Source: Streptomyces sp. NBC_01283
GTDB taxonomy: Bacteria > Actinomycetota > Actinomycetes > Streptomycetales > Streptomycetaceae
NCBI RefSeq assembly: GCF_041435335.1
Contig: NZ_CP108433.1
Coordinates: forward strand, 1 to 30,336
DNA: 30,336 nucleotides
Reading direction: 5' to 3'
A program made the translations under genes and the position numbers. This document shows positions 5,785 to 24,842 of this stretch, piece by piece. Position 1 is the first letter of the stretch; each line of letters begins with the position of its first letter. The notes beneath the pieces were generated by a model, which worked only from the letters and a program-made list of their open reading frames with translations, ran no database searches and was not told the origin of the DNA.

Positions 5785-6228
5785 CCCACCCCGGGCCCGC
5801 GCGGACGAAGGGACCCGATGACGGGCTCGTCGGTGGACCGTTCGGTTTCCTGAGTGCCTGCCTGTTGGAAACGATCGCACGACTGGACGACCCGCTGGCG
5901 CGACGCGCAGAACATATCTGAAGGGCTGGCCGCTGCCCCAGAAGCGCATTGAGGGCCCGCACCGCACTCGGTGTGCGGACCCTTAGCTGATCTGTGACGC
6001 ACCGTGAGGCTTGCCTAGAGCGCCCGGCGCCGACGCCAGGGTCCGGTGCACCCCGCAGGATGCCCCCTGTTGCCGCTGATCCTTCGGCCACAGAGCCCGG
6101 TCGACCAGCGCCCGCACCGGCCCGTCTGCCGTGTCCAGCCCCCGCGCGTCGCCATGCCCCTTGGACTGCGCGGTTCCACGTGTCAACGCCCGGTTACTGA
6201 CAGACTCGTCGCCATAGAAGGGAGACCC
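5785..6228. other. Intergenic region upstream of the TerD-domain gene
   Basis: Roughly 440 bases with no supported gene. Short open frames on both strands have no start context or recognisable sequence. The last bases carry the GGGAG ribosome-binding site of the next gene (about 6219-6224). No promoter is clear. Confidence 0.5.
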
Positions 6229-8088
6229 ATGGGCTTCGGATTTCGCGTCGGTGTGCCCGGCATGAGCGTGCGTGTCTCGGCCCGAGGGGTCCGAGCATCC
6301 ATCGGGCCGAGGATGGCCAGGGTGAATGTGGGTGGTGGGCGGACCACCCTCTCGTCCGGGATGGGCCCGTTCTACGCCTCCAGCGCTCTTGGCAGCGGGC
6401 GCCGCACCAGTACGAGTCGCACGACGCGCTCCGGCTCACGTCCGCGATCCGCCGCGCCTTCGGGTGAGCAGCTGGAACGGGCTCGCCAGCAGGCCGAGCG
6501 GGCCAAGCAGGAGGCGGAACGCGACGCGGCCATCGCGCATTTACGGGAGGTACGTCGGCAGATGACCAGCCTGCATCTGCAGTCCTTCTCCCCCGTGCTC
6601 CCACCGGTCGTGCCTGGGCCCCCACAACTCGGGTTGCCATGGGCCCTGGCCGAAGCGAAGACATTCCACCTAGCAGGTCTCGGCGTGTTCGCGCGCGCTG
6701 AGCGCACCGAGGCGAAACAACAGGCAGAGCAGGATGCGCCGGGCTACCTGGCCGCTGAGCTCTCCAGGTTGCAGGGCGTCCACGGCGAGTTGACGACCGA
6801 AGCACATCAGTGGTGGCAGTCCCTCCTCGCGAACGACGAGGTGACCGTGTGCGAGACGGTCAACTATGCCTTCTCCGACAACCCCGCGGCAGGCTGTGCG
6901 GTCGGGGTCAACGGCTCCGTCATGTCGGTGGTGATGCGGCAGCACGACATCGACTCGCTGCCCGATCAGACCCCGGACCTCACCTCCGGCGGGCGACCCA
7001 CGCTGAAGACGCTGACCAAGCGGGACCGAACCCTATGGTGGCTCACGTCCATGGGGTCCAACGTCATCGCCACTCTCAAGGAGGGCTTTGCAGTCGCCCC
7101 TGGGATCACCGCGATCGACCTTGCGGTGATCACCCGCATGCCGGACACACAGCGGCTGGCGTTCGTCGCGTACGGCCGGTGGACCCGCCCGGCCATCGAG
7201 TCAGGTCCCTGGCGGCAACCGGAGGACGCACTGCGCTTCCTGGACATCGGCCAGGACGTCGCCTGCGCCGTCGCCACGACCGCCTCCGGCAACCTGTCGA
7301 GCACCATCAAGCCGCTGGACATCAGCCGGCTGCCCGGTCTGCAGAGCCTGCTCGACCACGCCCGGGACGAGGCCGCCTCGGTCGACTCCACGCTGGCCGG
7401 TCTGGACGGCGACCTGCGGGCCAACGTCCCCGCCACCCCCCATGTGCCTGCCTCGGACCACTACCGGATCCGTACGTTCGCCGAGTGGAAGACACAGGCA
7501 TCCTCTACGGTCCAGCCGCCTGCGCTCGGCGAGCCCGTGCCCGCTGTCCCGACGGCACTCACGCCAGGGCAGAACCTCACGCTGCCCGATGAGGCATGGG
7601 AAGGACTGACCATCGCGTTCAGGTTCGGCGGTGCAGATGCCGACCTCTCTCTGTTCCTCACCGACGCGCAGAGCCGGGTCGCTTGTGACACAGACTTCGT
7701 CTTCTACAACCAGCCGTCCGCCGCCCAAGGGGCCGCCAGGCTACTGGGCAAGCAGAACGATGGCGCACATACCGTCGAACGCGCCGCCGTCCACCTCACA
7801 GCTCTACCCGAGCGTGTCCAGCGTATGACGATCGCGATCAACATGGACGTCGACACCGGCCTGACGTGCGGCTCCCTCACCCACGCTGAACTGTCCATCG
7901 ACTGCGCCACGGCCACCTGGACCTTCCAGCCCTCAGCCGACCCCGCCATCCGCGCAATGGTCGTCGCGGAGCTCTACCGGCACAGACCCGCCAACGGCCG
8001 CCCAGTGTGGAAGCTCCGCGCAGTCGCACAGGGTTGGGCCGATGGACTTGACGGCTTGGCCAGTGCCCACGGAATTGACGTGGGATAG
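6229..8088 (+). CDS. DUF4236-coiled coil-TerD domain protein
   Basis: The start is ATG 6229 behind gaaGGGAGaccc, giving 619 residues; open frame further upstream lacks coding character. The N-terminus MGFGFRVGVPGMSVRVSARG with VRASIGPRMARVNVGGGRTT has the short beta-repeat pattern of DUF4236 (about residues 1-45). A low-complexity Ser/Arg linker follows, then a charged coiled coil (about 80-110, QLERARQQAERAKQEAERDA) and a middle region of unknown fold. The C-terminal ~177 residues (443-619) are a TerD domain: GLTIAFRFGGADADLSLFL, DTDFVFYNQP, ELYRHR and WKLRAVAQGWADGLDGLA. TerD domains bind calcium and belong to the bacterial tellurite/stress-response (ter) system. The acidic residues of GADAD and DTD are candidate ligands. 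No signal peptide or membrane helix is seen, so it is probably cytoplasmic. It stands alone, without other ter genes in the window. Confidence 0.82.
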   Translation: MGFGFRVGVPGMSVRVSARGVRASIGPRMARVNVGGGRTTLSSGMGPFYASSALGSGRRTSTSRTTRSGSRPRSAAPSGEQLERARQQAERAKQEAERDAAIAHLREVRRQMTSLHLQSFSPVLPPVVPGPPQLGLPWALAEAKTFHLAGLGVFARAERTEAKQQAEQDAPGYLAAELSRLQGVHGELTTEAHQWWQSLLANDEVTVCETVNYAFSDNPAAGCAVGVNGSVMSVVMRQHDIDSLPDQTPDLTSGGRPTLKTLTKRDRTLWWLTSMGSNVIATLKEGFAVAPGITAIDLAVITRMPDTQRLAFVAYGRWTRPAIESGPWRQPEDALRFLDIGQDVACAVATTASGNLSSTIKPLDISRLPGLQSLLDHARDEAASVDSTLAGLDGDLRANVPATPHVPASDHYRIRTFAEWKTQASSTVQPPALGEPVPAVPTALTPGQNLTLPDEAWEGLTIAFRFGGADADLSLFLTDAQSRVACDTDFVFYNQPSAAQGAARLLGKQNDGAHTVERAAVHLTALPERVQRMTIAINMDVDTGLTCGSLTHAELSIDCATATWTFQPSADPAIRAMVVAELYRHRPANGRPVWKLRAVAQGWADGLDGLASAHGIDVG

Positions 8089-8615: not shown

Positions 8616-8624
8616 AAGGAGGTG
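8616..8624 (+). promoter_or_regulatory. Near-perfect Shine-Dalgarno of the dead C1 gene
   Basis: AAGGAGGTG sits 7 bases before the GTG at 8632, an almost ideal match to the 16S rRNA tail, yet the frame it serves stops at codon 5 (TAG). The corresponding site before C2 is a weaker GAGGTG. Retention suggests recent loss of C1 or a continued leader role upstream of A1. Confidence 0.6.
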
Positions 8625-8631
8625 AAGCCCT

Positions 8632-8943
8632 GTGGGGTCGGTATAGGCAGCACAGGCGGGTGCAGTGGTCCATCAATTGCCGACTATCTCATCTTCCGCT
8701 GACGGGAGATAGGGTGCCAGAGGGCGGGAGTGGGGCGCCGCGAAATGTGGGGGATGTGTGGGCCAGTGGCGCCTTATTCGAGTAATAGGCGTGTCAGATT
8801 GATGCGGTGATTGATGGAATCAACACGGGCTCCGATTCCTACGGCGGGTTGCCGCGCGTGCAAGTACAGCAATTCCCCGGCGAGTAGGTGCTGACGGTGG
8901 CGACGCTGGACAGTCAGGGAACATCGAAAGAATTGGGAAGCAC
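8632..8943 (+). pseudogene. C1: decayed copy of the small cassette gene C
   Basis: Base by base this stretch aligns with the intact minus-strand gene at 15022-15333. The start GTGGGGTCG matches ATGGGGTCG, and the tail reads VQVQQFPGE*VLTVATLDSQ against PVQQFLGEQLSLTATVDRQG in C2. Three stops replace conserved codons: TGG to TAG at codon 5, CAG to TAA mid-gene (followed by a TAG), and CAG to TAG near the end. About four extra bases around 8670-8690 also shift the frame. The similarity begins upstream of the start, so the leader was duplicated too. The gene cannot make the full protein. It lies in the same order relative to A1 as C2 does to A2, establishing that the ancestral cassette was C-A-B. 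Confidence 0.8.
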
Positions 8944-9052
8944 TCCTATTCTAGGCTGACTGACATTCTGCGCGTGGGAGGCAAGCCGGTGCCGGCATCA
9001 ACCCCGGGCTGATAGTCAAACAGTCTCGGAGCAACAGTAAGGTGATGCCGCC

Positions 9053-10504
9053 ATGACCATTACGGCACAATGGGTTCGCCAGCAGTTCAGCAACGGCACG
9101 TTCACGCTGACTGGGGCTCTTCTCGGTCTGGGAGATTCGACCGACTATCTCTTCAGCGATGCATGTCTTGGATCAAGTTGGACTGTCGAGATCGATCATC
9201 ATAATGACGATGCTTTAGTGGCGTGGGGCGCCGCTTCCGTGAAGGCAGCGACGCATAGCGTGGAAGTGCAGTTTCTGGAGGCTTCGCCAGACGCGTCTGG
9301 CGATACCCCTATTACTGGAATTGCCGTTTACGTCGACCTCGATGAGGATTGGAGATCCACCCTCTTCCCAAATCTTAACGTCGACACCCTCGAGCCATTC
9401 GGTTTCACGAATCCAGAAGCTGCACTGATCGTGGACCCCGACCAAGCCGACGACTTTCCGTATATCGAGGGTGCTGCCCGATACGGCCCACTGGTAGAAG
9501 CGTCACAGATACCGCGACGATTCTGCGTACGGCAATCAAGCCCAGGCTATCTCGACCTGTACTCTCGCCTGAATGTTCAACAATCCTACACCGACTTCAA
9601 CGGCTTGATGCAATCTCTCCCTTTCGTTGGCTTGCTGCCCTCCGTTGAAATCCCATCGGGAATAGAAAGCATAATTGGAGGTTTGAATCTCAACTTATCC
9701 TATGCTCGGGTGACACTCCAGGAAGATGGAGGCCTCCCCGTAGGTGGGAGCATTTCCATAGAAATTGGCGATCTCAATCATGAAGTAACAATCATTCAGG
9801 GACTCTTCACCGCAACTGCAGTCGACCTCAGCCTCGATTTGATGGGGATCGAATTCCTGATAGGAGCAAAATATACCGGCAAGATCGGCCAAACGGATGC
9901 CACGGTCTCGGGAGTATATGCCAAGGACGGACAAATGCGCCTTCTGGGGGGTGTAAAGTCCGTCACGCTGGATTCAACCGTCCATGAATGGCTCAACAGT
10001 GCTGTGGGTGCAGACATAGCGCAGATCCTGAGTGGCACAACGATAGAGTCGATGACTGTCGAGATCAATATGTCTCCCTCAGAAGCCGCTGTTCTTTCTG
10101 CGGGCCTTGAGGTCGCTATCCCAATTCCAGGGGATCAGGGGGACGCCTATCTGTCACTGAAGGCGATCAAACAAGGACAAGACACCGCTGCCATAGCGGG
10201 GGCACTCGAATTTCCAATGCCCACCGACGAGAATCCCGGCCAGAGCATCATCTTCCAAGGGTCCGTTTCCAAAGCTTCTGACGACCTAACTTTCTCTCTC
10301 GCCTGGGAGGCCGACGACACCTTCGAGATGCGGATAGCCGACCTCTTTCATCTTCTCGGAGTCGGTGAAAACATAGACGTACCGTTCGGTGATATCGGCC
10401 TTTCCAGCCTTGCCTGCTTGTACCTCCCGAAGGCACAGCTTCTCGCCTTTGGCGTGAATCTGCCACCGCTTCAGATTGTCTTCGCCAGACTGGGTACTAC
10501 GTGA
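9053..10504 (+). CDS. A1: cassette protein A, unknown function, beta-rich
   Basis: The start ATG 9053 follows aaGGTGatgccgcc; the product has 483 residues. No family is recognised. It lacks a signal peptide and membrane segments. The N-terminal ~150 residues form one conserved block (VRQQFSNGTFTLTGALLGLG, GIAVYVDLDEDW, PEAALIVDP, FPYIEGAARYG). The rest alternates short hydrophobic and polar residues as in extended beta structure: VYAKDGQMRLLGGVKSVTLD, VHEWLNSAVGADIAQILSG, FSLAWEADDTFEMRIADLFH, VNLPPLQI. The recurring pattern of a beta hairpin followed by an (I/A)-x-D-(L/I)-x-x-(L/I)-L-G segment hints at degenerate internal repeats, somewhat like DUF6603-type proteins (weak). The paralogue A2 on the other strand is very similar by eye. 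Third codon positions are far less G/C-biased than in neighbouring genes, suggesting horizontal acquisition. It is followed 70 bases later by B1. Confidence 0.85.
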   Translation: MTITAQWVRQQFSNGTFTLTGALLGLGDSTDYLFSDACLGSSWTVEIDHHNDDALVAWGAASVKAATHSVEVQFLEASPDASGDTPITGIAVYVDLDEDWRSTLFPNLNVDTLEPFGFTNPEAALIVDPDQADDFPYIEGAARYGPLVEASQIPRRFCVRQSSPGYLDLYSRLNVQQSYTDFNGLMQSLPFVGLLPSVEIPSGIESIIGGLNLNLSYARVTLQEDGGLPVGGSISIEIGDLNHEVTIIQGLFTATAVDLSLDLMGIEFLIGAKYTGKIGQTDATVSGVYAKDGQMRLLGGVKSVTLDSTVHEWLNSAVGADIAQILSGTTIESMTVEINMSPSEAAVLSAGLEVAIPIPGDQGDAYLSLKAIKQGQDTAAIAGALEFPMPTDENPGQSIIFQGSVSKASDDLTFSLAWEADDTFEMRIADLFHLLGVGENIDVPFGDIGLSSLACLYLPKAQLLAFGVNLPPLQIVFARLGTT

Positions 10505-10549
10505 TCAGAAGTTGACCAGACGCATATCAGTGAACCCAGAATAATTCGG

Positions 10550-10559
10550 GATTCGAATC
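10550..10559. promoter_or_regulatory. Short palindrome GATTCGAATC in the A1-B1 gap
   Basis: A perfect 10-base palindrome immediately upstream of the AAAAGGA ribosome-binding site of B1. The A2-B2 gap does not carry the same palindrome, so its importance is doubtful. Confidence 0.25.
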
Positions 10560-10574
10560 GAAAAGGACTCAGTC

Positions 10575-11513
10575 ATGAATACTGACACGCAGTCGGCCAT
10601 GAGTGACAATCGATACTTCCGCACATCTTGTTACCGGCAAGTCGGAACAACAAATCTCATCCCAGCGCTGGAGTCGATGACCAGAGGAAACGTAAGCGCA
10701 TGGAAGCTCATGGACGTAAGCAACGCGGCCTACTACACCCGCGCACCCTTTTTCGGTTCATCGTTCAGCTTCTCAAAGAATATCGCTTCGTACAATGCCG
10801 CCAAGGATCCCCTAAGCCCCGATATTGACCGGTTACTCCGCGAGGTGCCGATCACGATCAGGCATTACACCAACGGCGATAAACCCTCGGGGCCGCCTAG
10901 CTTTGCCTGGGTCCTGTCAAACTGGGACCTTACGGTGAACCGTGCCCGCGAAAACCTGCCCCCCATTGGTGTCACCAACAGTAATTGCTGGTGCTATTTC
11001 GGAAATCAGCATTTTGTATTCTCTACTATTGCCGTTCATGATCAACCTACATACAGAAGCGCCCTTTCAATTAAATCCAAATGGTATACCGTCATCCCTG
11101 CGAGCAATATTGTAGATTGCTGGTGCTCACCCGACTTTTATCTCCACTTCGTGCCACAGAAGCCTCGAACCGCAGATCAGGCTAATGACCTAATAAGTCA
11201 GAAATGGGCGACTACAGATCTGGCGGGAAGGGTCACCCCTCCTCTCCTCAGGGCAAGCGGGACCAATGCAAGGAGGGCCATAATTTCGGCCGTACTAACG
11301 GACTATAAGGTTAAGTACGGTGGCAGCTACCTCACCAAGGCGATCAGTGATGGTAATTCATTAATTCAAGGAGAAAGTAACTCAGCAGGTAAAGTTCTCG
11401 CCGTTAATATCTCGAAGCACTTTTCGGGAAAGCTGGAAATAAAGATTCCCGTACCGTGGCCGGTTGGCCGCGCAGGCAACGGTTGGCTGCCTAATCCAAA
11501 AATGCAATTTTGA
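10575..11513 (+). CDS. B1: cassette protein B, unknown function
   Basis: ATG 10575 follows gAAAAGGActcagtc, giving 312 residues. A second ATG at 10599 matches the start of paralogue B2 better but has no ribosome-binding site. No signal peptide or membrane helix is seen. Blocks shared with B2 are SAWKLMDVSN (residues 41-50), VPITIRHYTNGD (91-102), PSFAWVLSNWDL (108-119), CWCYFGNQHFVFST (138-151), VHDQPTYR, WYTVI, DCWCSPDF (181-188) and a C-terminal LEIKIP...W.PNP. The invariant RHYTNGD and the Cys/Trp pairs suggest an active or metal site. An RHYT-like motif followed by a distant F-S-T resembles ADP-ribosyltransferase layouts, but only loosely. Low-G+C codon use matches A1. Probably cotranscribed with A1. 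Confidence 0.82.
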   Translation: MNTDTQSAMSDNRYFRTSCYRQVGTTNLIPALESMTRGNVSAWKLMDVSNAAYYTRAPFFGSSFSFSKNIASYNAAKDPLSPDIDRLLREVPITIRHYTNGDKPSGPPSFAWVLSNWDLTVNRARENLPPIGVTNSNCWCYFGNQHFVFSTIAVHDQPTYRSALSIKSKWYTVIPASNIVDCWCSPDFYLHFVPQKPRTADQANDLISQKWATTDLAGRVTPPLLRASGTNARRAIISAVLTDYKVKYGGSYLTKAISDGNSLIQGESNSAGKVLAVNISKHFSGKLEIKIPVPWPVGRAGNGWLPNPKMQF

Positions 11514-12426
11514 CGGGCAGGCAGAAAGGAAAATGCCCAGTCTATTCGAATGTTGTTGAGTGCCAATCTCACGGTCCGACGCGGAATATGGTCACGCCTA
11601 CCGGGGGGCGGCGGCGGTACGACGGCCCGCATGAGATGGATGAACTCGGGGCGGCTCGCAGCACCCGTACCCGACGGCTGCCGGCGTCGCCACCACCACT
11701 GCCGAACGCGTTCACGCCCCGGCGCCACTCTGCAGGCCCGCCTCGACCACGTCGCTGCCCCTGTCCGACAACGCGCCGAACGGAGCAACCGGCGCCTGCA
11801 CCAACGCCGGGGTAACCTGCACCTCGTCGTAAACGATCTACCATCAGCGTCGTGGCGCCACCCCGGAACGGTCCGGCTGGTGCTGGCCTCTGGCGACCAT
11901 GGGGACTGACACCGCTCAACTCCGCTGCGCCAGCGCGGGCCCAAAGGCCTTCAGCGCGAAGAACCATCCGCGGATTCCTATGAGCAGCCCGCTCCTTGCG
12001 GCCACGCCCGGCATGAGTCGAGCCACGATCCCGCCGACGCCACACATCTACAACGGCCTGGCCCCACACTCCAACTACCCGCCACCGCAGCGCCACCAGC
12101 GACCCGTGCAGGAATTCATCGAGACCGACGCCGCGGTCCACAGCGGCACGGACCGGGTGAGCACACCGAGGCGCGTACGGCACAGATCAGGGCGACGTCG
12201 AAAGGACCTGGAGCGACCGAGAGAGAGGCCAGCCTCATTGAGCCGCTGGCCCGGTAGAGCCCCAGGCCATCCGCACGCTTGCCCCCGGTCACGTACCGCG
12301 CCCAGTACGTGGGCGAGACGGACCTCGACGGCGGTTCTTCGCCAGCGTGTGTCTGACGGTTGCGGCTGCCCCAGGCGCTGTGCCCTCGTTCACCTGGATT
12401 TCCCGGCGAGCCTTTTGATCTGCCTG
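11514..12426. other. G+C-rich spacer between the two convergent cassettes
   Basis: About 900 bases lie between the tail-to-tail stops of B1 and B2. The base composition rises to typical Streptomyces levels, unlike the cassettes. Long open frames occur on both strands (for example minus 11569-12183), but they are Arg/Gly/Pro-rich, lack start context and are not recognisable. Just after B1 a small hairpin (gggca...tgccc, about 11515-11538) could act as a weak terminator. Cassette similarity stops at or just beyond the stop codons; only a short caggcaga is shared. The spacer may be foreign DNA inserted between the cassettes. Confidence 0.4.
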
Positions 12427-13311
12427 TTATAGGGGCAAAGGGTTCGGGTACCAGTCATCAACTGGCATTGCGTTGGGAATCTTTATTTCCAGTTCCTGGA
12501 AATATTCTTGGATCTGGACAGCGAGTTTCCTGCCTCGCGAGTTCGGGTTTCTTGCATCGGCAAGGTCATTGCCGGCGCTTATCACCTCTTGAACATAGTC
12601 GCCACCAAGAGATTCCTTGGTGTCGCGAAGAATAGTCGAAAGCGCGGCCGAAATTATATTGGTTGCTTTGGCCCTGAACAGAGGAGGGCAGACCGGCCCC
12701 GCTAGTCCGTCGCCCCATTCCTCCGCTATTTTAGCTTTAGCCTGCTTCGCTGTAGTGATCGTCGCGTCAAAAAGACTGAGGAAATCGGCCGAGCACCAGC
12801 AGTAATCAATAGAACCTTCGTCTATCACCGTGTACCAGGCACATTCTAGCGGCATGATCCTGTATGCAGGCTGATCATGGATTGCGAGAGTAGAGAACAC
12901 GAACTTCTGATTGCCGAACCAGCACCAGTCTTCGACCCCCGTGTTCCCGTTACCTCTGTAGTCAATCCTATTCGCCAGGTCCCAGGATGAGAGGATCTGG
13001 GTGAAACTAGGCTTCTTTGACGGCCCCAGGTCGCCGTTGGTGTAGTGCCTGATGGTGATGGGAACTTGGTCACGTACAGCCTTGATATCGTTTTTGAACG
13101 GATCGCGGTCGGCGTCATATTTCACACACGCCCCCTCGAAAAGGAAGGGCGAATCCAGCAGAAACCTGTAATCGTAGTAGTTGTCATTGCTTACCTTCAT
13201 AATCCCCCATGCGCTATCCGTTTTCCTTGTCTTCTTCAGTATGGGTACGAGATTATCTAACCTAGTCGTACGATCGCTACAGGCTGTCTTGAATTCGCTC
13301 TTAAAACTCAT
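12427..13311 (-). CDS. B2: cassette protein B paralogue
   Basis: The minus-strand ATG at 13311 is preceded by AAGGAAT at good spacing; the product has 294 residues. It aligns with B1 over the full length: SAWGIMKVSN, VPITIRHYTNGD (residues 83-94), PSFTQILSSWDL, WCWFGNQKFVFST (129-141), AIHDQPAYR, WYTVIDEGSIDYCWCSADF (159-177) and a tail YFQELEIKIP...DDWYPNP. The Cys pairs and RHYTNGD are retained, while surface regions differ greatly, so the copies are old or came from different sources. No family assignment. It starts 70 bases after the A2 stop, the same gap as between A1 and B1, implying one operon with A2 and C2. Confidence 0.82.
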   Translation of the reverse strand: MSFKSEFKTACSDRTTRLDNLVPILKKTRKTDSAWGIMKVSNDNYYDYRFLLDSPFLFEGACVKYDADRDPFKNDIKAVRDQVPITIRHYTNGDLGPSKKPSFTQILSSWDLANRIDYRGNGNTGVEDWCWFGNQKFVFSTLAIHDQPAYRIMPLECAWYTVIDEGSIDYCWCSADFLSLFDATITTAKQAKAKIAEEWGDGLAGPVCPPLFRAKATNIISAALSTILRDTKESLGGDYVQEVISAGNDLADARNPNSRGRKLAVQIQEYFQELEIKIPNAMPVDDWYPNPLPL

Positions 13312-13381
13312 GGCTGATTCCTTATTTCATTCGAGTCTGACGTGATTCGACCGGCGTTCACCGTCGGTGCATTCTTCGTCG

Positions 13382-14815
13382 TCACGTAACTCCCAGGTTC
13401 ACAACGGTGATCTGAAGAGGAGGCAGGTTCACGCCCAGGACGAGAAGCTTCTGACTTGGGCGGTAAACAGCACCAAGGCTGGATAGGGAGATATCCCCGA
13501 ACGGTATGTCTACGTTTTCATTGACTCCGAGAAGGTGAAAGAGGTCGGCTATGGAGGCCTTAAAGTTCTGGTCACCCTCCCAGGCGAGAGAGAACGTGAG
13601 ACCGTCGGATGCCCGGGTGACGGATCCTTGAAAGACGATATTCTGCCCAGGATATCTGACCGTAGGCATGGGAATTTCGAGCGCCCCCCTCACCGTAACG
13701 GATTCCTTGCTAATTGCCGTCAGTGATAGATAGGCATTCCCGTGATCCCCTGGGATCGGAATTTCGACCACGAAGCCCGCAGTGAGAGCAGCCGCTCCCG
13801 AAGGCGGAACGTTGGTTTCTACGAACATCGTCTCCACTGTTGGGCCGGAAAGGATCTGCCCTATGTCTGCACCGACGGCACTATTGAGCCACTCATGGAT
13901 ACTTCCGTCCAAGGCGACGTCCTTCACCGATCCCAGGAGGCGTATCTGACCGCTGCTGGCGTACATTCCCGAGACAGTGGCCTCGGTCTCGCCGATCCTT
14001 CCCGTATATTCCGCACCTATCAGGAACTCGGATCCCATTAACTCGAGGGTGATATTGAGTGCGTGGGCGGTGAAGAGTTCCGGAATTATTTCTGCGTCAT
14101 GACCAAGCTCACCAATCTCTACGGCAACGCTAGCCCCTACAATGCTCTCGCTATCCTGCTGGAGTGTCACCTGGACATAGGATAGATAGAGAGGCAGGCT
14201 CCCGATAAGGCTCTGCAGTTCTGGCGGCACGTCAACGGAGGAAGGAAGTTTGGCGGCGAAAGGCAACGAACTGATCAGGTCGTTAAAGTCGGTGTGGCGT
14301 TGCTGGCTGCCCAGGCGCGAGTAGATGTCGAGATATCCTGCGCCGGAGTCCTCTACGCAGAAGCGTTGCGGTACACGTTCCACCGGTTGGCCAAACTGGG
14401 CTGCACCCTCAATGTAGGGATATTCATAAGGGTGTTCAGGGTCCACGATCAGGGCAGCCTCGGGATGCTGGAAGCCGAACGGCCTGAGGGCGTCGGTGTT
14501 AAGGTCTGGAAAGATGCTGGATTCCCAATCCCCGTCGAGGTCGACATAGACAGCAATGCCAGCAATATTGGGCTCCCCTTGCGAAGCCCCCAAAAAATGC
14601 ACCTCAACATTGCGTTTCACCCCTTTCACAAGAGCTGTGCCCCAACCCACTAAAGCATCGGGATCACTCTGGTCGATCTCGACAGCCCAACTCGTACCAA
14701 GACAGTCATCACTGAAAAGGATATTTGTCGGACTGCCGAGGCCGATAAGAGAAGCAGTCAGCGTGAATCCGCCGCTGACGAAGTGATCGCGAACCCAGTC
14801 GATCGAAATGGTCAT
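13382..14815 (-). CDS. A2: cassette protein A paralogue
   Basis: 477 residues from the minus-strand ATG at 14815 (upstream gaggcgatgagccgat). It aligns end to end with A1: LFSDDCLGTSWAVEID, GIAVYVDLDGDWESSIFPDL, PEAALIVDPEHPYEYPYIEG, RFCVEDSGAGYLDIYSRLG, HEWLNSAVGADIGQILSG, IADLFHLLGVNENVDIPFGD and a terminal LGVNLPPLQI. By eye more than half of aligned residues are identical, with a few three-residue gaps. No signal peptide, transmembrane helix or known catalytic motif is visible; the predicted structure is mostly beta. It lies between C2 (207 bases upstream) and B2 (70 bases downstream) on the same strand. Like A1 its codon use is less G/C-biased than the genome-like neighbours. Confidence 0.85.
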   Translation of the reverse strand: MTISIDWVRDHFVSGGFTLTASLIGLGSPTNILFSDDCLGTSWAVEIDQSDPDALVGWGTALVKGVKRNVEVHFLGASQGEPNIAGIAVYVDLDGDWESSIFPDLNTDALRPFGFQHPEAALIVDPEHPYEYPYIEGAAQFGQPVERVPQRFCVEDSGAGYLDIYSRLGSQQRHTDFNDLISSLPFAAKLPSSVDVPPELQSLIGSLPLYLSYVQVTLQQDSESIVGASVAVEIGELGHDAEIIPELFTAHALNITLELMGSEFLIGAEYTGRIGETEATVSGMYASSGQIRLLGSVKDVALDGSIHEWLNSAVGADIGQILSGPTVETMFVETNVPPSGAAALTAGFVVEIPIPGDHGNAYLSLTAISKESVTVRGALEIPMPTVRYPGQNIVFQGSVTRASDGLTFSLAWEGDQNFKASIADLFHLLGVNENVDIPFGDISLSSLGAVYRPSQKLLVLGVNLPPLQITVVNLGVT

Positions 14816-15021
14816 ATCGGCTCATCGCCTCGCTGTTGGACGTCCGTGTCGGACGCGGGTGAACCTGTGAACTCGGCGTACCTATCGCGTTCAAGCGTCA
14901 CCGAGCGCCAGGCCGATCCGCAATGTGAGTGAATCCTCAAGACTGGATCATTGGACGCGTCGGCCAGATGGCGCCCACCCTCCGATCATTGTCAATCTCG
15001 TGCTGCTATTCAGCGATCTCC
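14816..15021 (-). other. C2-A2 intergenic region
   Basis: 206 bases with no gene. On the minus strand a TTGACA (about 14989-14994) lies inside this gap, so A2 may have its own promoter; no convincing -10 box follows at the right distance. Confidence 0.3.
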
Positions 15022-15333
15022 TCAGAGGGGTTCGCTCACCAGAACAAATGATTCGCCCTGCCTGTCCACCGTCGCCGTCAGCGACAGCTGTTCCCCGAGG
15101 AATTGCTGGACTGGAAGATGAGGCAACCCGCTGTCGGAGATCTGGTTAAATTCATCAATTGCGGCATTAATCTGACCCACCTGCTCTCCCGACAAGGCAT
15201 TATTTGCCCACACCACTCCCACGCTCTGCACCGCTACATCCTCGTCCTCCGACACCCCACCCCCCACCAACGGAAGCTGAGAGAGACGACAATCGATCAC
15301 TGCATCCACCTGCGCCACCCATAGCGACCCCAT
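15022..15333 (-). CDS. C2: small cassette protein C, unknown
   Basis: The start ATG 15333 follows gGAGGTGtgtt; a GTG at 15381 is open but without ribosome-binding site support. The product has 103 residues: MGSLWVAQVDAVIDCRLSQL at the start, an acidic stretch GVSEDEDVAV, a helical LSGEQVGQINAAIDEFNQIS, then PVQQFLGEQLSLTATVDRQG and SFVLVSEPL. There is no signal peptide and no known motif. It is the first gene of the C2-A2-B2 group. Similarity to the dead C1, extending through the ribosome-binding site, shows that it belongs to the cassette. Small size and first position would suit a regulator, chaperone or immunity protein, but nothing in the sequence decides this. Confidence 0.65.
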   Translation of the reverse strand: MGSLWVAQVDAVIDCRLSQLPLVGGGVSEDEDVAVQSVGVVWANNALSGEQVGQINAAIDEFNQISDSGLPHLPVQQFLGEQLSLTATVDRQGESFVLVSEPL

Positions 15334-15463
15334 AACACACCTCACCAGTCCAATCGCGGGAACTACGTGCTTACACCTCACCTAATATGTGCAGGCACCA
15401 TCGCTGTCCCTCTGCGTTTCTGCCAGCGAATCGGTTTCCTGTAAGGGACCACAAAGGAACGGT

Positions 15464-15615: not shown

Positions 15616-15843
15616 GTGTCGCTCTGGCGCCAGGTCACCGGTGCCCTGGCGCCGGCCCGAAGACGCAGCGCGAAATACCCCGTTACGCCTCGTCGATCTG
15701 AGAGGGCACGACAGGAGCACAAACGGCGGATGGCCGGCGACGTGCTGGCCGACGGAGCTGTGCCGTTCCCCCGGCCCGGTGATGAGTGGTCCGCCGACGA
15801 GTGTCGCCGTGAGGCTCGTGCCCACGGTCGGCAATCAGAGTGA
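15616..15843 (+). CDS. Possible small protein upstream of the aquaporin relic
   Basis: A 75-residue frame begins GTG TCG CTC TGG and ends two bases before the aquaporin ATG. It is Arg/Ala-rich with a C-terminal FPRPGDEWSADECRREARAH. Tight spacing to the next gene is the main support. No family is recognised and the ribosome-binding site is unclear, so it may be spurious. Confidence 0.3.
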   Translation: MSLWRQVTGALAPARRRSAKYPVTPRRSERARQEHKRRMAGDVLADGAVPFPRPGDEWSADECRREARAHGRQSE

Positions 15844-15845
15844 TC

Positions 15846-16340
15846 ATGACCTCCAACCCCGACCAGGAGAAGTTTGTGCCCCCCTTACGCATCTTCCTCG
15901 CCGAAGCCCTCGGCACCGCGATCCTGATCATCGGCGGGGTGGGAACCGCGGTATTCGACGCCGACCGCGCTGGCGTGCTCGGCGTCGCGCTCGCCTTCGG
16001 CCTCAGCCTGCAGGCGGCGGCGTACCTGATCGGCCCGATCTCCGGCTGCCACATCAACCCCGCCATCACCGCGGCCATGGTCGCCATCCGCAAGACCGAC
16101 GTCCGGCTGCTGCCCGCCTACCTAGGCGGGCAAGTCGTTGGAGGCCTGCTCGGTGCGTTGCTGATCTGGTCCATCGGCCAGGGCAAGGCCGACTTCACCG
16201 CCGTGGACCAAAACGGCACATCCACCAGCGTCTCCGTCAGCGAGGCCGGCTTCGCCTCCAACGGCTACGGCGCCCACTCCCCCGACCACTACAACCTCGC
16301 CACCATCATCCTTGCGGAAGTCGTGGCCACCGCCGGAGAC
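15846..16340 (+). pseudogene. Aquaporin/MIP channel, N-terminal half only
   Basis: From ATG 15846 the protein runs FLAEALGTAILIIGGVGTAV, VALAFGLSLQAAAYLIGPIS and GCHINPAITAAMVAI, containing the first NPA box, then LPAYLGGQVVGGLLGALLIW and TIILAEVVATA. These are helices 1 to about 4 of an aquaporin. MIP channels are built from two such halves and need a second NPA box; it is missing. At about 16340 the sequence changes to unrelated DNA and the same frame continues into an ABC ATPase fragment. Broken by deletion or recombination, and not expected to form a water channel. Confidence 0.8.
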
Positions 16341-16473
16341 GGATTAACGTGCCCTCGACGACGGGCAGTTCACTCTCATGGCCGATCCATGCGAACCACT
16401 GCTGCCACCGAGGAGGGAGCCGGTCCCCGGAACGTGTCTCGGCCTTGCCGTAGCGGGCCGTGTCGTCCACCGT

Positions 16474-16818
16474 GCCTGTACGAACACCTCACTGTGCGCG
16501 AGCAGCTGGCACTGTTGGCAGCATGGTGGGGAGTGCGCACGGCAGGACTCGTGGATCGGGTGGAGGCGCTGAGAATGACGGGCCGCCATGGTGTCCTGGT
16601 CGGCGAGCTGTCTCTCGGGCAGCGCAAGAAACTGGGCTTCGTCCGTGCAACAGCACACGAACCCCAACTGGTCCTCCTGGCCGAACCGTTCAACGGCCTC
16701 TGCTCAGCTGCCGAAACGGCGGTGCGAGCCCAGCTCAAGCGCTGGAAGGCGCCAAGAGCGAACCCTCGTCCTGGTCTCCCACACGACCAGGTCCGTAGCC
16801 GAACTGCTCGACCGGCAT
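16474..16818 (+). pseudogene. ABC transporter ATPase fragment
   Basis: In frame with the aquaporin piece, the sequence YEHLTVREQLALLAAWWGVR, then GELSLGQRKKLGFVRATAHE and PQLVLLAEPFNGLCSAAETA gives the signature motif (LSLGQ) and a Walker B region of an ABC ATPase; the usual final Asp-Glu of Walker B is altered (LLAEPFNGL). Walker A is absent. Near 16750 the coding signal shifts frame to TLVLVSHTTRSVAELLDRHD, containing the H-loop histidine, and runs into the start of the IclR gene. It is a leftover of an exporter ATPase, truncated at the 5' end and frameshifted. Confidence 0.72.
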
Positions 16819-16851
16819 GATCCTTCGCTCGCGGCCGATGGAGAAGACGTG

Positions 16852-17619
16852 ATGTTGGTCCCCCGCAACTCCGAGTCAGGCACCGGGCCGGTGTTGGGAC
16901 GCGCGCTGCGGATTCTCGGGGCATTCACCGCGAAGTGCCCCGAGATGACGTTGAGTGAGTTGTCCCGGAGATCCGGGCTACCGGTATCGACCGTTCACCG
17001 GATGCTCGGCGACCTCATCGCCTGGGGAGCATTGGAGCGCGACGCCAAGGGGAGCTATCGAATCGGCCTGCGCCTGTGGGAGGTTGCCTCCCTCGCGCCG
17101 CGTGGACAGGGAATGCGCGAGCGGGCCCTTCCGTTCCTGGAAGATCTCTCCCAGATCACCCACGAGAACGTGCAACTCGCGGTGCGCGAAAGCACAGAGG
17201 TCGTCTTCGTCGAGCGCATCGCCGGGTCCGGTGCGGTGCCGGTGCTGACGCGTGTGGGCGGGCGTTTCGCCCTCCCTGCCACCGGCGTCGGTCTGGTGCT
17301 GCTCGCGCACGCCCCTGTCGAGGTCCAGGAGCAGGCGCTCGCGGGCCCCCTCCAGCGTTTCACGCCAGATACGGTCACCGACCCGCGTGCGGTGCGGCGG
17401 ATGCTGGCCGAGGTGCGGGCCAATGGCTATGCGGTCAGCGACCGCCAGGTCACGATGGACGCGTTGTCCGTCGCAGCCCCGGTGTACCGCGGCGACACGG
17501 TGATCGCCTCGGTATCGCTGGTGGTACGTCATGGCAGCACGTCCGTGCATGGGTTGGCCCGGCTCGTCTGTACAAGCGCCCGGGCGATCTCACGCGCCAT
17601 GAGTACGCTGCAGGTCTGA
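16852..17619 (+). CDS. IclR-family transcriptional regulator
   Basis: ATG 16852 is preceded by GGAG at 8 bases (a GTG at 16849 is also possible); open frame further upstream belongs to the ABC relic. The product has 255 residues. The N-terminal winged HTH spans about 12-75 (VLGRALRILGAF, LSELSRRSGLPVSTVHRMLG). The C-terminal effector domain includes VQLAVRESTEVVFVERIAGS, RVGGRFALPATGVGLVLLAH, GYAVSDRQVTMDALSVAAPV and a helical end. Full length for the family. IclR proteins bind promoters of nearby catabolic genes and respond to small aromatic or carboxylate ligands. The Rieske oxygenase operon begins 400 bases downstream in the same direction, so control of that operon is the natural inference. 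Confidence 0.9.
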   Translation: MLVPRNSESGTGPVLGRALRILGAFTAKCPEMTLSELSRRSGLPVSTVHRMLGDLIAWGALERDAKGSYRIGLRLWEVASLAPRGQGMRERALPFLEDLSQITHENVQLAVRESTEVVFVERIAGSGAVPVLTRVGGRFALPATGVGLVLLAHAPVEVQEQALAGPLQRFTPDTVTDPRAVRRMLAEVRANGYAVSDRQVTMDALSVAAPVYRGDTVIASVSLVVRHGSTSVHGLARLVCTSARAISRAMSTLQV

Positions 17620-18021: not shown

Positions 18022-19086
18022 ATGACTGCTTTGGCACGCAATCAGTGGTACATCGCCGCCTACGGCCGAGAGGTCGGGCGCGAGCTGCTCGGGCGTACCG
18101 TTCTCGGCGAGCCGATCCTGCTGTACCGCACGGAGGCCGGCCAACCGGTGGCGCTGTCCGAGCGTTGTGTGCACCGGCGCTTCCCGCTGTCGCAGGCACC
18201 GAGCCGCCTGGACGGCGACCGGGTGGTGTGCGGCTACCACGGCTTCGCCTACGGCACCGACGGCGGCTGCCTCTTCGTGCCAGGCCAACAGCGCATCCCG
18301 CGCACCGCACGACTGAAGTCCTATCCGGTAGTCGAGCAGGACTCCTTCGTGTGGGTGTGGATCGGCGACGGCGAGCCCGGGGCCGCCCTCCCGCCCCGCG
18401 CTCCGTGGATGGACTCGCCCGGCTACACCGTGGTGTCGGGCATGGAGCCGATCGACGGCAACTACGGTCTGCTCGTCGACAACCTCATGGATCTATCGCA
18501 CGAAACATACCTGCACGGTGGCTACATCGGCACTCCGGAGGTGGCCCAGACCCCCATCGCCACCGAGGTCGACGACAACGCCGGCATTGTCTACGTCAGC
18601 CGCCACATGGACGACGCGCAGTGCCCTCCGTTCTACGCCAAGTCCACAGGTATCAAGGGCCGCATCAGCCGCTGGCAGGACATCGAATACCACGCGCCCT
18701 GTCTGTACTTGCTCCACTCGCGCATCGCACCCGTGGACGCACCAGGACCGAATCCGGATGGCAGCGACCCGCACGCCTTCCACGTAGAGGTCGTCTACGG
18801 CATCACCCCCGCAACAGAGAAGACGACGTACGACTTCTGGGCCGTGGCCCGCGACTTCGCCCTCGACGACCAGAACGTCACCGAATTCCTGCGCGGCAAC
18901 AACCACACGGTGGTCATGCAGGACGTCGTGGCCCTCAATGTGCTCCAGACGGCGCTGGACACCGAGCCGGCCGGCTACCAGGAGCTGAGCATCAACATCG
19001 ACACGGGCGGACTCGCCGCCCGCCGCACGCTCGCCCGCCTGGCCCAGCAGGGCGCCACGCCGCAGGCCCAGCCGGCAGCACGATGA
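18022..19086 (+). CDS. vanA-like: Rieske non-heme iron oxygenase, VanA-like
   Basis: ATG 18022 follows AGGGAA; 354 residues. The Rieske [2Fe-2S] ligands are visible: C49-x-H51 (ERCVHRRFPL) and C70-x2-H73 (VVCGYHGFAY). The mononuclear iron site is within NYGLLVDNLMDLSHETYLHG, with H160 and H165. The layout and the segments DNLMDLSHETYLH and INIDTGGLAARRTLARL match vanillate O-demethylase oxygenase subunits and related aromatic monooxygenases. Known reaction of VanA: oxidative O-demethylation of vanillate to protocatechuate with electrons from VanB. The exact substrate here is uncertain, because related enzymes act on other methoxy- or chloro-aromatics. The stop overlaps the next start (ATGA), and the reductase is the third gene. 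Confidence 0.85.
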   Translation: MTALARNQWYIAAYGREVGRELLGRTVLGEPILLYRTEAGQPVALSERCVHRRFPLSQAPSRLDGDRVVCGYHGFAYGTDGGCLFVPGQQRIPRTARLKSYPVVEQDSFVWVWIGDGEPGAALPPRAPWMDSPGYTVVSGMEPIDGNYGLLVDNLMDLSHETYLHGGYIGTPEVAQTPIATEVDDNAGIVYVSRHMDDAQCPPFYAKSTGIKGRISRWQDIEYHAPCLYLLHSRIAPVDAPGPNPDGSDPHAFHVEVVYGITPATEKTTYDFWAVARDFALDDQNVTEFLRGNNHTVVMQDVVALNVLQTALDTEPAGYQELSINIDTGGLAARRTLARLAQQGATPQAQPAAR

Positions 19087-19349
19087 CTCAGCTGCACCCA
19101 CCTGCCCTCGCGAGCGAGAACGTCTACCGCATCCACTGGAAGCTGGGCACCGACCGGCTGCTGGCCGTCTGTCACTGCGGAGCACAACGGGAGTTCGAGG
19201 ACCCGGTGGGGCTGTGGGACTGGCTGCTGGGCCATCCCGAGGACCACTGCCCCGGGCCGGCCTCCCAGTCCAGTTCTTCCTGCGCCCCCAGCCTTCACCG
19301 GGGGTCCTCGCCCGAAGCTGCCCCCGGCCCGGAGAGAAGATCACCATGA
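19083..19349 (+). CDS. Small protein between oxygenase and reductase, Cys-x-Cys
   Basis: The frame begins ATG 19083, overlapping the vanA-like stop by ATGA, and ends in another ATGA overlap with the reductase start at 19346. Both junctions therefore imply translational coupling. The 88-residue product reads YRIHWKLGTDRLLAVCHCGA, then QREFEDPVGLWDWLLGHPED, then a low-complexity Ser/Pro tail. Similar stand-alone small proteins with a CHCG motif and FEDPxxLWxWLLxHPE occur in Streptomyces, but I know of no assigned function. CHCG plus a downstream H and C (HPEDHC) could bind zinc or iron. Position between the two redox partners suggests an assembly or accessory factor (inference). Confidence 0.65.
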   Translation: MTQLHPPALASENVYRIHWKLGTDRLLAVCHCGAQREFEDPVGLWDWLLGHPEDHCPGPASQSSSSCAPSLHRGSSPEAAPGPERRSP

Positions 19350-20317
19350 CCATCACGCCCCTTGCACCCACCGGGGACGACCTCGACCTGACACTGCTAC
19401 GCAAGGAGCCCCTCGCCGAGGACATCGTCCGGCTCAGCCTGGCCCATCCCTCCGGTGCGCAGCTGCCCGCGTGGAGTCCGGGCGCCCACATCGACCTGGT
19501 GCTTGGCCCCGGCCTGGTACGGCAGTACTCACTGTGCGGCGACCCGGAGGACACCTCCCTCCTCCAAGTGGCCGTGCTGCGCGAGCCAGAAAGCCAAGGC
19601 GGTTCCCAGTACGTACACGACACGCTGGCCGAGGGCGACACGGTCCGGGTGGGCGGCCCCCGCAACCACTTCCAACTGGCCCACTCCCCCCGCTACCTGT
19701 TCGTCGCCGGCGGCATCGGCATCACCCCGCTCCTGCCGATGATCGCCGCCGCCGAGCAGCAAGGGGCCGACTGGCGGCTGGTGTATGGCGGGCGCAGCGG
19801 CGCCAGCATGGCCTTCGCCGGGCAGCTGGCCAAGGCCCATCCCCGCCGGGTGAAGCTATGTCCCCAGGATGAGACCGGCCTCCTCGATCTGGACGCGCTG
19901 CTCACCAGCCCGGCCAGCGACACCCTCGTCTACTGCTGCGGTCCCGAGCCGCTGCTCGACGCGATGGAGCGGAAAACGGCCTCCTGGCCGGACGGTGCGC
20001 TGCACATCGAACGGTTCGCGCCGAAGTCCCGGGCGGCCCAGACCCCTTCGGCCTCCTTTGAGGTCGAACTCTCCCGGAGCGGCATCACCGTGACCGTCTC
20101 GCCGGACCAGACCGTCCTGCAGAGCGTCGAGGAGGCGGGCGTGCAGGTCCTGACCTCGTGCCAGGAGGGCACCTGTGGCACGTGCGAAACGGCGGTCCTG
20201 GACGGGGTGGTGGACCACCGCGACTCCCTCCTCACGCCCGCAGAACAGGCAGGCAACGACACAATGTTCATCTGCGTATCGCGCGCCGCCTGCCCGCGCC
20301 TTGTCCTTGACCTGTGA
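19346..20317 (+). CDS. vanB-like: Ferredoxin-type oxidoreductase, VanB-like
   Basis: The start ATG 19346 overlaps the previous stop and follows gGAGAGaag; 323 residues, typical of class IA dioxygenase reductases. The FMN-binding barrel carries RQYSLCGDP (59-67). The NAD domain has GGIGITPLLPM (122-132) and CCGPEPLLDAM. The C-terminal plant-type [2Fe-2S] domain has C272, C277, C280 (SCQEGTCGTCETAVLDG) and C310. It takes electrons from NAD(P)H through FMN and the iron-sulfur cluster to the Rieske oxygenase, so it completes the two-component system with the gene at 18022. Cytoplasmic. All functional motifs are intact. Confidence 0.88.
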   Translation: MTITPLAPTGDDLDLTLLRKEPLAEDIVRLSLAHPSGAQLPAWSPGAHIDLVLGPGLVRQYSLCGDPEDTSLLQVAVLREPESQGGSQYVHDTLAEGDTVRVGGPRNHFQLAHSPRYLFVAGGIGITPLLPMIAAAEQQGADWRLVYGGRSGASMAFAGQLAKAHPRRVKLCPQDETGLLDLDALLTSPASDTLVYCCGPEPLLDAMERKTASWPDGALHIERFAPKSRAAQTPSASFEVELSRSGITVTVSPDQTVLQSVEEAGVQVLTSCQEGTCGTCETAVLDGVVDHRDSLLTPAEQAGNDTMFICVSRAACPRLVLDL

Positions 20318-23216: not shown

Positions 23217-23244
23217 CAAGGCCGTGAAGTTACGGGCTGATCGG
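23217..23244. repeat. Left terminal inverted repeat of the IS4-family element
   Basis: 28 bases, complementary to 24705-24732 with one mismatch. Confidence 0.85.
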
Positions 23245-23356
23245 GGGTGTCAAGCGGCTTTGGTGTGAGGTTCGGCGAACTTGAGGACACGGAAAGCGGA
23301 GCCCCGGTAGAACTGGCAGTCGACCAAGACAACCGTTCACAGCACCGGAGGCTCCG

Positions 23357-24719
23357 CTGTCTGGCCAGTCTGTCATCCGTCGCGAAGTCGTGGTAGCCGA
23401 AGGGGTGTTTGCCCCAGGACACCTGGGTGAACTGACCCAGATTGTGCCGTTCGAGCTAGTCGATGCAGTACTCGCCGAGTGTGGCGCGGTTCAGGAACGA
23501 ACCCGCAAGCTCCCGGCCCGAGTTGTGGTCTATCTCCTGCTCGCGGCCGGGCTGTTCGAGGAGTGCGGATATCTGGGCGTGTGGCGCAAGTTGACGGGTG
23601 CACTGTCCGCGCTATCGATACCCCGGGTGACCGCCACGGCCATGTGGCAGGCCCGTGCCCGGCTCGGCGTGCGGCCGATGCGGGCCCTGTTCGATCTGCT
23701 GCGTGGTCCAGCCTCGGCAATCCGGACGGCCGGGGCCCGCTGGGCCGGAATGCTGGTCGTCGCCATCGACGGAACCCACCTGGACGTCGCCGATGACGAA
23801 GCGGTCCGCGCCAAGCTCGGCAAAACCTCCAACCAGTACACCGCCTCCTCGGGATACCCCCAGGTCCTCCTGGCCACCTTGGTGGCCTGCGGGACCCGCG
23901 CGGTGATCGACGCGGTGTTCGGCCCGGCAAACCCGGCGAGTCGATCCTGGGCCGCCGCCTGTTGCGGTCCGCACATCCAGGCATGCTCGTCCTACTCGAC
24001 CGCGGCTTTGCCACCGCGGGCTTCCTGAGCGCCGTGAATGAATCCGGCGCCCGCTTCCTGGCACGGCTGTCCGCCAGTTGGAAGCCTCCGGTGCTGGCCC
24101 GGTATCCCGACGGTTCGTTCCTCTCCCGCCTGGCCGGCACCGAGGTCCGGATTGTGGCCTGCGAGATAGCCGTCGTGACCAGCCAGGGCCGACGCGCCGG
24201 CACCTACCGCCTGGCCACCACCCTGCTCGACCACCGCACCCATCCCGCATCCGAGCTGGTCAAGCTCTACCACGAACGCTGGGAGGTGGAATCGGCCTAC
24301 TTCGAACTAAAGAAGTCGATGCTCGGACGCCGGGTTCTGCGCTCCCGCTCCTGGCCGGGCATCGCCCAGGAGATCTATGCCCTGCTCAGCACGTATCAAC
24401 TGATCCGGATCGCGATCTCAGACGCCGCCCACCCCACCAAAACCGACCCGGACCGATGCGCCTTCACCACAGCCCTGCACGCAGCCCGCGACCAGGTCAT
24501 CCAGGCCGCCAACGTGCTCGCCGACACCGTGATCGACCTGGTCGGCGCGATCGGCACCACCGTACTCAGCGCGCTCCTGCCCACCCGACGACCCCGGCTC
24601 AGCCCTCGCGCAGTCAAACGCCCCCTATCCCGCTACGCACACAAACGCCTGAAAGTCGACCGCCGGACCTACCCGCCACCCTCACCATCAACATCTCGAC
24701 CAACCCGATCAGCCCTTAA
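23357..24719 (+). CDS. IS4-family transposase, two apparent frameshifts
   Basis: The N-terminal part (SGQSVIRREVVVAEGVFAPG, HLGELTQIVPFELVDAVLAE, LPARVVVYLLLAAGLFEECG) is the IS4 transposase N-terminal domain. The DDE core has VVAIDGTHLDVADDEAVRAK (first Asp), LVLLDRGFATAGF (second Asp) and YHERWEVESAYFELKKSML (Glu). At 23929-23935 the frame must slip by -1, from GPANPAS to KPGESILGRRLL, exactly at AAACCCG, a sequence of the XXXYYYZ slippery type. A second -1 change near 24665 restores a terminal TLTINISTNPISP with TAA at 24717-24719. GGAGG (23347-23351) stands five bases before a CTG at 23357; a GTG at 23390 has no ribosome-binding site. The protein is otherwise complete. It may be recently inactivated, or translated through recoding at the first site. 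Confidence 0.75.
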
Positions 24720-24732
24720 CTTCACGGCCTTG
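24705..24732. repeat. Right terminal inverted repeat of the IS4-family element
   Basis: 28 bases, complementary to 23217-23244 with one mismatch. Confidence 0.85.
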
Positions 24733-24734
24733 TC

Positions 24735-24740
24735 CTTTAG
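24735..24740. repeat. Target-site duplication, right copy (ctttag)
   Basis: Matches 23209-23214. Six bases is shorter than the usual IS4 duplication, so part of the match could be chance. Confidence 0.6.
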
Positions 24741-24842
24741 GTGGGGGAGGAAACGAAGCTCCCGCGTGAGCGGGGCAGAGTGGAGCCGGTTCGCCCTCTG
24801 GGCGAATCCGGCGTTGTCAGTGGCAGCAAGTACGTTGATGAG

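Follow-up and report, generated by a model that had tools for sequence, protein, structure and literature searches.

Two diverged copies of an A-B gene pair in Streptomyces sp. NBC_01283 carry a stand-alone domain akin to the C-terminal parts of contractile injection system cargo-type proteins

In the present study, we analysed a DNA stretch of 30,336 bases from Streptomyces sp. NBC_01283 (assembly GCF_041435335.1, contig NZ_CP108433.1), referred to here as the window, which is one whole contig of a 9.59-Mb, five-contig genome with an estimated completeness of 100%. The window carries two copies of a gene pair, in which A encodes a large acidic protein and B a smaller protein consisting of a stand-alone domain. 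Sequence comparison showed that B is kin to the C-terminal domains of cargo-type proteins of contractile injection systems (CIS); no CIS was found in the genome that carries this effector-type domain here. Our tentative reading is that the A-B pair is CIS-independent and patchily distributed, and that its two copies in the window diverged long ago.

The four large frames are intact, and the two copies face each other tail to tail. In copy 1, on the plus strand, A1 (positions 9053..10504; 483 amino acids (aa), acidic, net charge -41, without a known domain) is followed by a gap of 70 bases (10505..10574) with an AAGGA-type ribosome site and then by B1 (10575..11513; 312 aa, net charge +12), a stand-alone CIS effector-type domain. 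In copy 2, on the minus strand, A2 (13382..14815; 477 aa, acidic, beta-patterned, net charge -38) is separated by a gap of the same length (13312..13381) from B2 (12427..13311; 294 aa, net charge -5), likewise a stand-alone CIS effector-type domain. The 3' end of the gap could be aligned between the copies, from the ribosome site (AAGGA-type) to the start codon of B. End-to-end alignment gave 61-62% identity between A1 and A2 and 47-48% between B1 and B2. A first-pass annotation of this DNA had described two diverged tail-to-tail copies, alignable over their whole length and with equal A-B gaps, and these results agreed with it. The differences between the copies favoured third codon positions, with 120/97/202 differences by codon position in A (476 codons) and 122/100/160 in B (289 codons). 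The ratio of nonsynonymous to synonymous divergence (dN/dS) was 0.32 for the A copies (dS 0.83) and 0.26 for the B copies (dS 1.95). The low-G+C codons that had been noted were also observed: third-position GC was 0.57-0.62 in the four genes and 0.71-0.90 in the neighbouring frames, which were taken from a simple frame caller that listed A1, A2 and B2 and missed B1. The overall GC content was 53-59% in the six 1-kb steps from 9001 to 15000 and 62-72% in the remaining 24 steps. A promoter and terminator scan was uninformative, with 3 and 2 sites found against 2.9 and 6.1 expected.

The kinship of B was established by profile searches of genomes, in which only a few top candidates from a permissive initial screen were scored, so that absences in them are not proof. 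Among 391 genomes of the order, a four-row B profile (residues 26-213 or parts thereof) matched six other genomes of the genus with E-values of 4e-16 to 2e-15, and everything else lay above 0.18. Among 392 genomes of the genus, a ten-row B profile found two new genomes (G146 and G219) and G287 again. The foreign set thus comprised eight genus genomes (G511, G500, G494, G287, G416, G441, G146 and G219). A short C-terminal B remnant was found in G203 (E 7e-4, 392-genome draw), with 28 codons matched and a single TAG, which could be the stop codon of the remnant itself. Three further matches in that draw (G050, G283 and G047; E 0.02-0.05) were taken as chance, their frames being unread. In the draw of 396 genomes from the phylum, B was found in its own genome alone, besides one match at E 0.03 in a stop-containing frame. 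BLASTP with B2 as a single-sequence query aligned residues 19-288 at E 1.9e-13 among 832 frames. In the reverse direction, a model built from the eight foreign domains alone retrieved B1 (4e-15), B2 (3e-17) and two B relatives from a protein search described below, P0007 (9e-19) and P0009 (5e-13); the best decoy (reversed) or other frame among 426 sequences reached E 1.8. The 12-row B alignment, loose before residue ~80, contained 37 invariant columns, including B2 residues T86-I-R-H-Y90, W129, G133-N134, W159-Y160, C171-W172-x-S-x-D176, R213, E275-x-K-x-P279 and W287. The significant profile matches and the shared invariant motifs placed B in one family with the foreign C-terminal domains, a previously undescribed family that is defined here.

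No match below E 0.03 was obtained for A or B in Pfam, NCBIfam, PHROGs or PADLOC, and no relative of either was found in genome contigs, viral contigs, plasmids or phages. By sequence against the PDB, E 0.47 was the best value obtained with the profiles of A and B (3 and 10 rows). The 12-row B profile matched designed helical PDB proteins (E 1.2e-5, 1.7e-5 and 0.0023) at positions 10-71 only; these matches were not taken as homology, and they hint at helices in this part of the profile. We found no description of the B domain in the literature, with supplements outside our reach, where the proteins may stand unnamed.

In a published layout of CIS toxins, an N-terminal DUF4157 (the extracellular CIS (eCIS) core) is combined with a C-terminal toxin domain (PMC8213781). 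In three of the eight foreign genomes (G511, G500 and G146), PF13699 eCIS_core lay upstream in the same frame as the B domain (E 2e-15 to 2e-16). In three of the eight, the B-domain gene lay within 10 kb of CIS sheath and tube genes (loci L027, L031 and L070, from G511, G500 and G219, respectively), at a distance from the sheath of 5.2 kb, 0.3 kb and less than 0.3 kb. Pfam recognised Phage_sheath_1 and Phage_sheath_1C at these three loci with the tail tube Phage_T4_gp19 beside them, and an AAA ATPase was also present at L031, the sole locus examined for it. The linkage to sheath and tube genes and the core-domain fusion carry the argument for the CIS link of B. A sheath gene was present in all eight foreign genomes, which says little because CIS are very frequent in Streptomyces, with 153 regions in 127 genomes given in PMC10020575. 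In G494, G287, G416 and G441 (loci L028, L029, L030 and L032), the B domain stood in a shorter protein with an AGNAAVAR-like N-terminal stretch, without a core domain and away from the sheath found. These four genes have neighbours in common, and the G203 remnant (L071) lies among the same neighbours.

Several further features of the foreign loci were recorded. At L070 (9248-13806, G219), two sheath genes flank the tube gene in a CIS-type stretch, and the B-domain gene of this genome is followed on the same strand by two frames (~530-550 aa each) in which beta-propeller-like stretches recur, as judged by eye. At L027 (6493-9453, G511), a gene beginning VSLWTSLEPASATVDPGSS is present beside the CIS genes as two tandem near-copies; it is single in L031, and we take it to resemble the SCO4256 family. 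Compared with plasmids, the L031 protein matched four records, in its core-domain part only.

In the genome of NBC_01283 itself, eCIS_core (PF13699) was not found with a model that was positive in six of six foreign genomes of the 391-genome draw. A sheath was not found either, with a query that reaches sheaths at 39-40% identity elsewhere and was positive in the same number of foreign genomes of that draw as well as in G146 and G219. eCIS-associated toxins are encoded in or near a CIS operon and frequently, though not always, have a DUF4157/eCIS core in the protein or a neighbour; for B, neither a CIS operon nor such a core was found. Because no sheath or core domain was found in its own genome, the window is not an injection system. 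The first-pass suggestion of an injection-type system was thus retained only for the B domain, which in other genomes forms the C-terminal part of proteins of the CIS effector type. It is conceivable that B is an orphan cargo still loaded into particles, either of a divergent CIS in its own genome or of CIS of other strains that carry the cassette, with A as chaperone or loader. The position of the B domain near CIS genes at L027, L031 and L070 is consistent with such a role, and DUF4157 proteins have been discussed as in-trans chaperones for effectors without the domain (PMC11297309). We consider this decidedly unlikely, given that no sheath or eCIS_core was found in the genome, that the N-terminal stretch of AGNAAV type present in the foreign forms is, by eye, missing from the stand-alone B proteins, and that no A was found in the neighbourhoods of the foreign forms.

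The relationship between A and B was examined in a search of 5.8 billion proteins, which was limited to shared 5-residue words and scored the 8000 candidates with most shared words. The A relatives found were A1, A2 and three outside proteins: P0002, 82% identical to A1 and located on an 8,545-base contig with the source tag 'lgn'; P0004 from Streptomyces sp. BA2, 84% identical to A2; and P0005 from Streptomyces sp. NPDC094438, 46-48% identical to A1 and A2. The B relatives were P0007 from BA2 (85% to B2) and P0009 from an 8,545-base contig (82% to B1). The similarities therefore ran in parallel, at 82%/82% for A1/B1 to the 'lgn' pair and 84%/85% for A2/B2 to the BA2 pair. In all four cases with both genes known (the two window copies, BA2 and the 'lgn' contig), A and B were listed on equal-sized contigs; their adjacency was seen within the window. 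These results showed that A and B are inherited in parallel. Two co-inherited genes with short spacing, as in type II-like toxin-antitoxin pairs, were thus found, in the form of the 70-base gap present twice and the parallel identities, with adjacency seen in the window only. For the fifth A protein, from NPDC094438, no B was found by the word-based search, which also missed the distant relatives of B.

Two types of the A-B pair can accordingly be distinguished by their sequences, each with a relative in another source. Given these two types, a recent duplication on the spot is a less likely origin of the window copies than the coexistence of two old types. The first-pass annotation had regarded homologues regularly found apart as evidence against a single system. 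B is indeed separable, because its domain occurs without A nearby at eight foreign loci, and A was seen without B at most once. The proposed functional unit was upheld for A and B and not for a third element, C, which is treated below.

A proved to be rare. The A profile found its own genome alone among 392 genomes of the genus, and the same held for 391 genomes of the order at a threshold of E 0.001; the A- and B-profile draws were of the same size and kind and probably consisted of the same genomes, which the lists do not fully show. Weak A matches in 27 other genomes (best E 0.0027) were rejected as chance. Eight of these frames were inspected and none was related by eye: two were sugar-binding lipoprotein-like, one cold-shock-like and one GNAT-like, and the rest were unrecognised. 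A DUF6603-like nature of A was also rejected, with zero Pfam families for A1 and A2 at E up to 10 and the term absent from the literature searched. The idea that A consists of two similar halves, as a repeat protein would, was rejected as well. When the profile parts were compared, the probability was 0.2 and 25 of 60 column-shuffled controls scored equally high; the values for three other splits, which had no controls, ranged from 0.28 to 3.24.

The A proteins carry a net charge of -20 to -45, and three of them showed beta-type hydrophobic alternation (z 2.2 to 4.0), which was not seen in three B-family proteins (z 0.2 to 0.8). The usual membrane cut-off for 19-residue hydropathy is 1.6. The highest value anywhere in A was 1.57, and the highest in the first 40 windows of five A and four B proteins was 1.14. 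By this simple hydropathy scan, no signal-peptide-like stretch was found in A or B, as the first-pass annotation had also stated. These features bear on the idea of an exported two-component toxin, in which A would bind and deliver, B would be the enzyme, both would be released by lysis or a leaderless route onto other organisms, and the two copies would serve different targets. The effector-type nature of B, the large beta-patterned A encoded in front of it and the presence in a single genome of two diverged types, both of which have relatives of 82-85% identity in other sources, fit this idea. The lack of a signal-peptide-like stretch speaks against it, as does the lack of a known pore or receptor-binding domain in A (Pfam, NCBIfam, PDB and PHROGs), and we regard an exported toxin as unlikely.

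The first-pass annotation had proposed a cassette of three genes, C-A-B. A and B stood as genes; the claim was weakened because C1 is broken. The C1 relic (8633..8947, plus strand), upstream of A1, is a broken relative of C2 (15022..15333, minus strand), an open frame of 103 aa (119 aa from a GTG at 15381) whose coding status is unproven. The identity between C1 (about 8633-8947) and C2 (15025-15333) was 50%, the region of C1 matching C2 was interrupted by two TAG and one TAA, and the DNA alignment contained 12 gaps. The alignment score was 130, against a maximum of 45.5 among 200 shuffles, and the likeness started some 35-40 bases upstream of C, in line with the earlier observation that similarity reaches beyond it. 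Since the likeness is far above the shuffles and extends upstream of C, an ancestral C-A-B arrangement is plausible. The differences by codon position (19/22/27 of 94/93/94) gave a weak coding signature, and C as a protein in copy 2 is therefore unproven. C had no Pfam or PADLOC match, and its matches in NCBIfam (E 0.034; 12 bits, the cut-off being 1164) and in PHROG (E 0.13 and 0.21) were at chance level only; no relative was found among plasmids. The cassette is better called A-B, with C lost in copy 1 and unproven as a protein in copy 2.

We compared the pair with known systems. The C-terminal part of eCIS-associated toxins (N-terminal DUF4157/PF13699) shares the B domain in three genus genomes; B differs from them in having no core domain, standing alone in its frame, being paired with A and occurring in a genome for which the CIS searches were negative. 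An injection effector can also form a toxin-antitoxin unit, as PMC13277306 reports for a Micromonospora CIS effector of the Sle1 type. Sle1, compared by description only, is portrayed there with a long tape-measure-like coiled coil, which was not seen in B by eye. Tme of S. davawensis (PMC11126660) belongs to a Streptomyces CIS and has a core domain in front and an enzymatic C-terminal domain; the latter is described as an EndA-like endonuclease with DRGH and H-N-N motifs, and the invariant residues of B differ from these.

Taken together, we consider it possible, with less than even confidence, that A-B is a CIS-independent conflict module in which B is toxin-like and A is its neutraliser or escort. 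B would be a toxin-type enzyme acting inside a cell, with the invariant R88-H89-Y90, Y160 and E275-x-K-x-P of B2 as candidate active-site residues. The (near-)invariant R-H-Y-T strand in the middle of B and the E-h-x-h-P strand near its end presumably recall the layout of ADP-ribosyltransferase toxin domains, and such a fold for B is a weak guess. A, which is encoded first, strongly acidic, beta-patterned and without an export signal, may bind B and hold or escort it. The two copies would differ in specificity, and C may be an accessory or leader that is not essential and that copy 1 has already lost. More doubtfully, A-B would be an undescribed two-protein conflict or delivery module, in which a CIS effector domain has been freed from its phage-tail machine, A as a new, large, acidic beta-type partner takes the place of the machine as carrier or safety catch, and two specificity types are kept next to each other.

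Several observations weigh against the proposed conflict module. A single sheath query and a single Pfam model are the basis for regarding the genome as free of a CIS, and the Pfam eCIS_core search was positive in none of 14 control genomes, its positives being foreign genomes only. Five of the eight foreign B genes lie on other contigs than the sheath genes found, or about 3 Mb from them at least, and five of the eight foreign B frames have no core domain. No ADP-ribosyltransferase family or structure matched B in Pfam, NCBIfam or the PDB at E up to 10. A is very large for an antitoxin (about 480 aa) and has no relative of known function. Finally, no A was found near the foreign B loci: the best E of the A profile was 4 among the 832 frames (nine stretches), and A1 and A2 were retrieved at 1e-274 in the same run. 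If A neutralises B, users of CIS would thus protect themselves otherwise.

The surroundings of the pairs were also inspected. Both contig ends cut through frames (ATP-grasp-like at 1-1134 and peptidase M1-like at 29455-30336), and the contig is therefore probably a fragment and not a complete plasmid. About 0.5 kb upstream of the C1 relic, a 680-aa frame (6046-8088, plus strand) carries a C-terminal TerD domain (Pfam E 7e-23) and, near its start, a sub-threshold DUF4236-like stretch (E 0.054). A plus-strand frame at 15840-17619 has an aquaporin-type (MIP) start and an ABC-transporter-like end (E 5e-4), overlaps an IclR regulator frame and looks like a deletion scar. Behind the regulator, a Rieske/VanA-type oxygenase and a flavin- and 2Fe-2S-type reductase (18022-20317, plus strand) look like an ordinary O-demethylase-type operon. 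Further along the plus strand (23962-26006), a frame of the DDE transposase type and a gene of the IS605 OrfB/TnpB type, the latter with a Cas12f1-like TNB domain, lie near a 29-bp inverted repeat (23217-23245 / 24704-24732, 97%).

Mobile-type neighbours of this kind bear on two other explanations. Degenerating foreign DNA without present function would fit the broken C1, the MIP/ABC chimeric frame and the nearby transposase-type genes; all four large frames are intact, however, and the third-position bias and the dN/dS of 0.26-0.32 between the copies point the other way, though they may predate arrival. Only a slight chance is left to this explanation. A phage-defence (abortive infection) module, in which A would sense infection and release B and B would stop the cell, would suit the low GC content and patchy spread of the pair, the transposase-type genes at a distance of some 9 kb and the effector-type B. 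The defence function suggested in the first-pass annotation was not borne out, as A, B and C had no PADLOC match (the neighbouring genes lay outside that scan). No defence-type Pfam name was found among 16 scanned window frames, and viral contigs, phages and plasmids yielded no A or B relative, so that we judge a defence module to be very unlikely.

In summary, the CIS effector domain is of a known kind, and its pairing with A outside a CIS is new as far as seen. Of 1130 predicted core-domain CIS toxins, 983 have no further annotated domain, according to PMC11297309. B defines one such unannotated toxin part, by its invariant residues and by a natural non-CIS form with a dedicated partner. As a neutraliser, A would be of unusual size and without a relative of known function. 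The finding raises two questions, namely what the domain does and by what means a cell escapes harm from it when no particle confines it.

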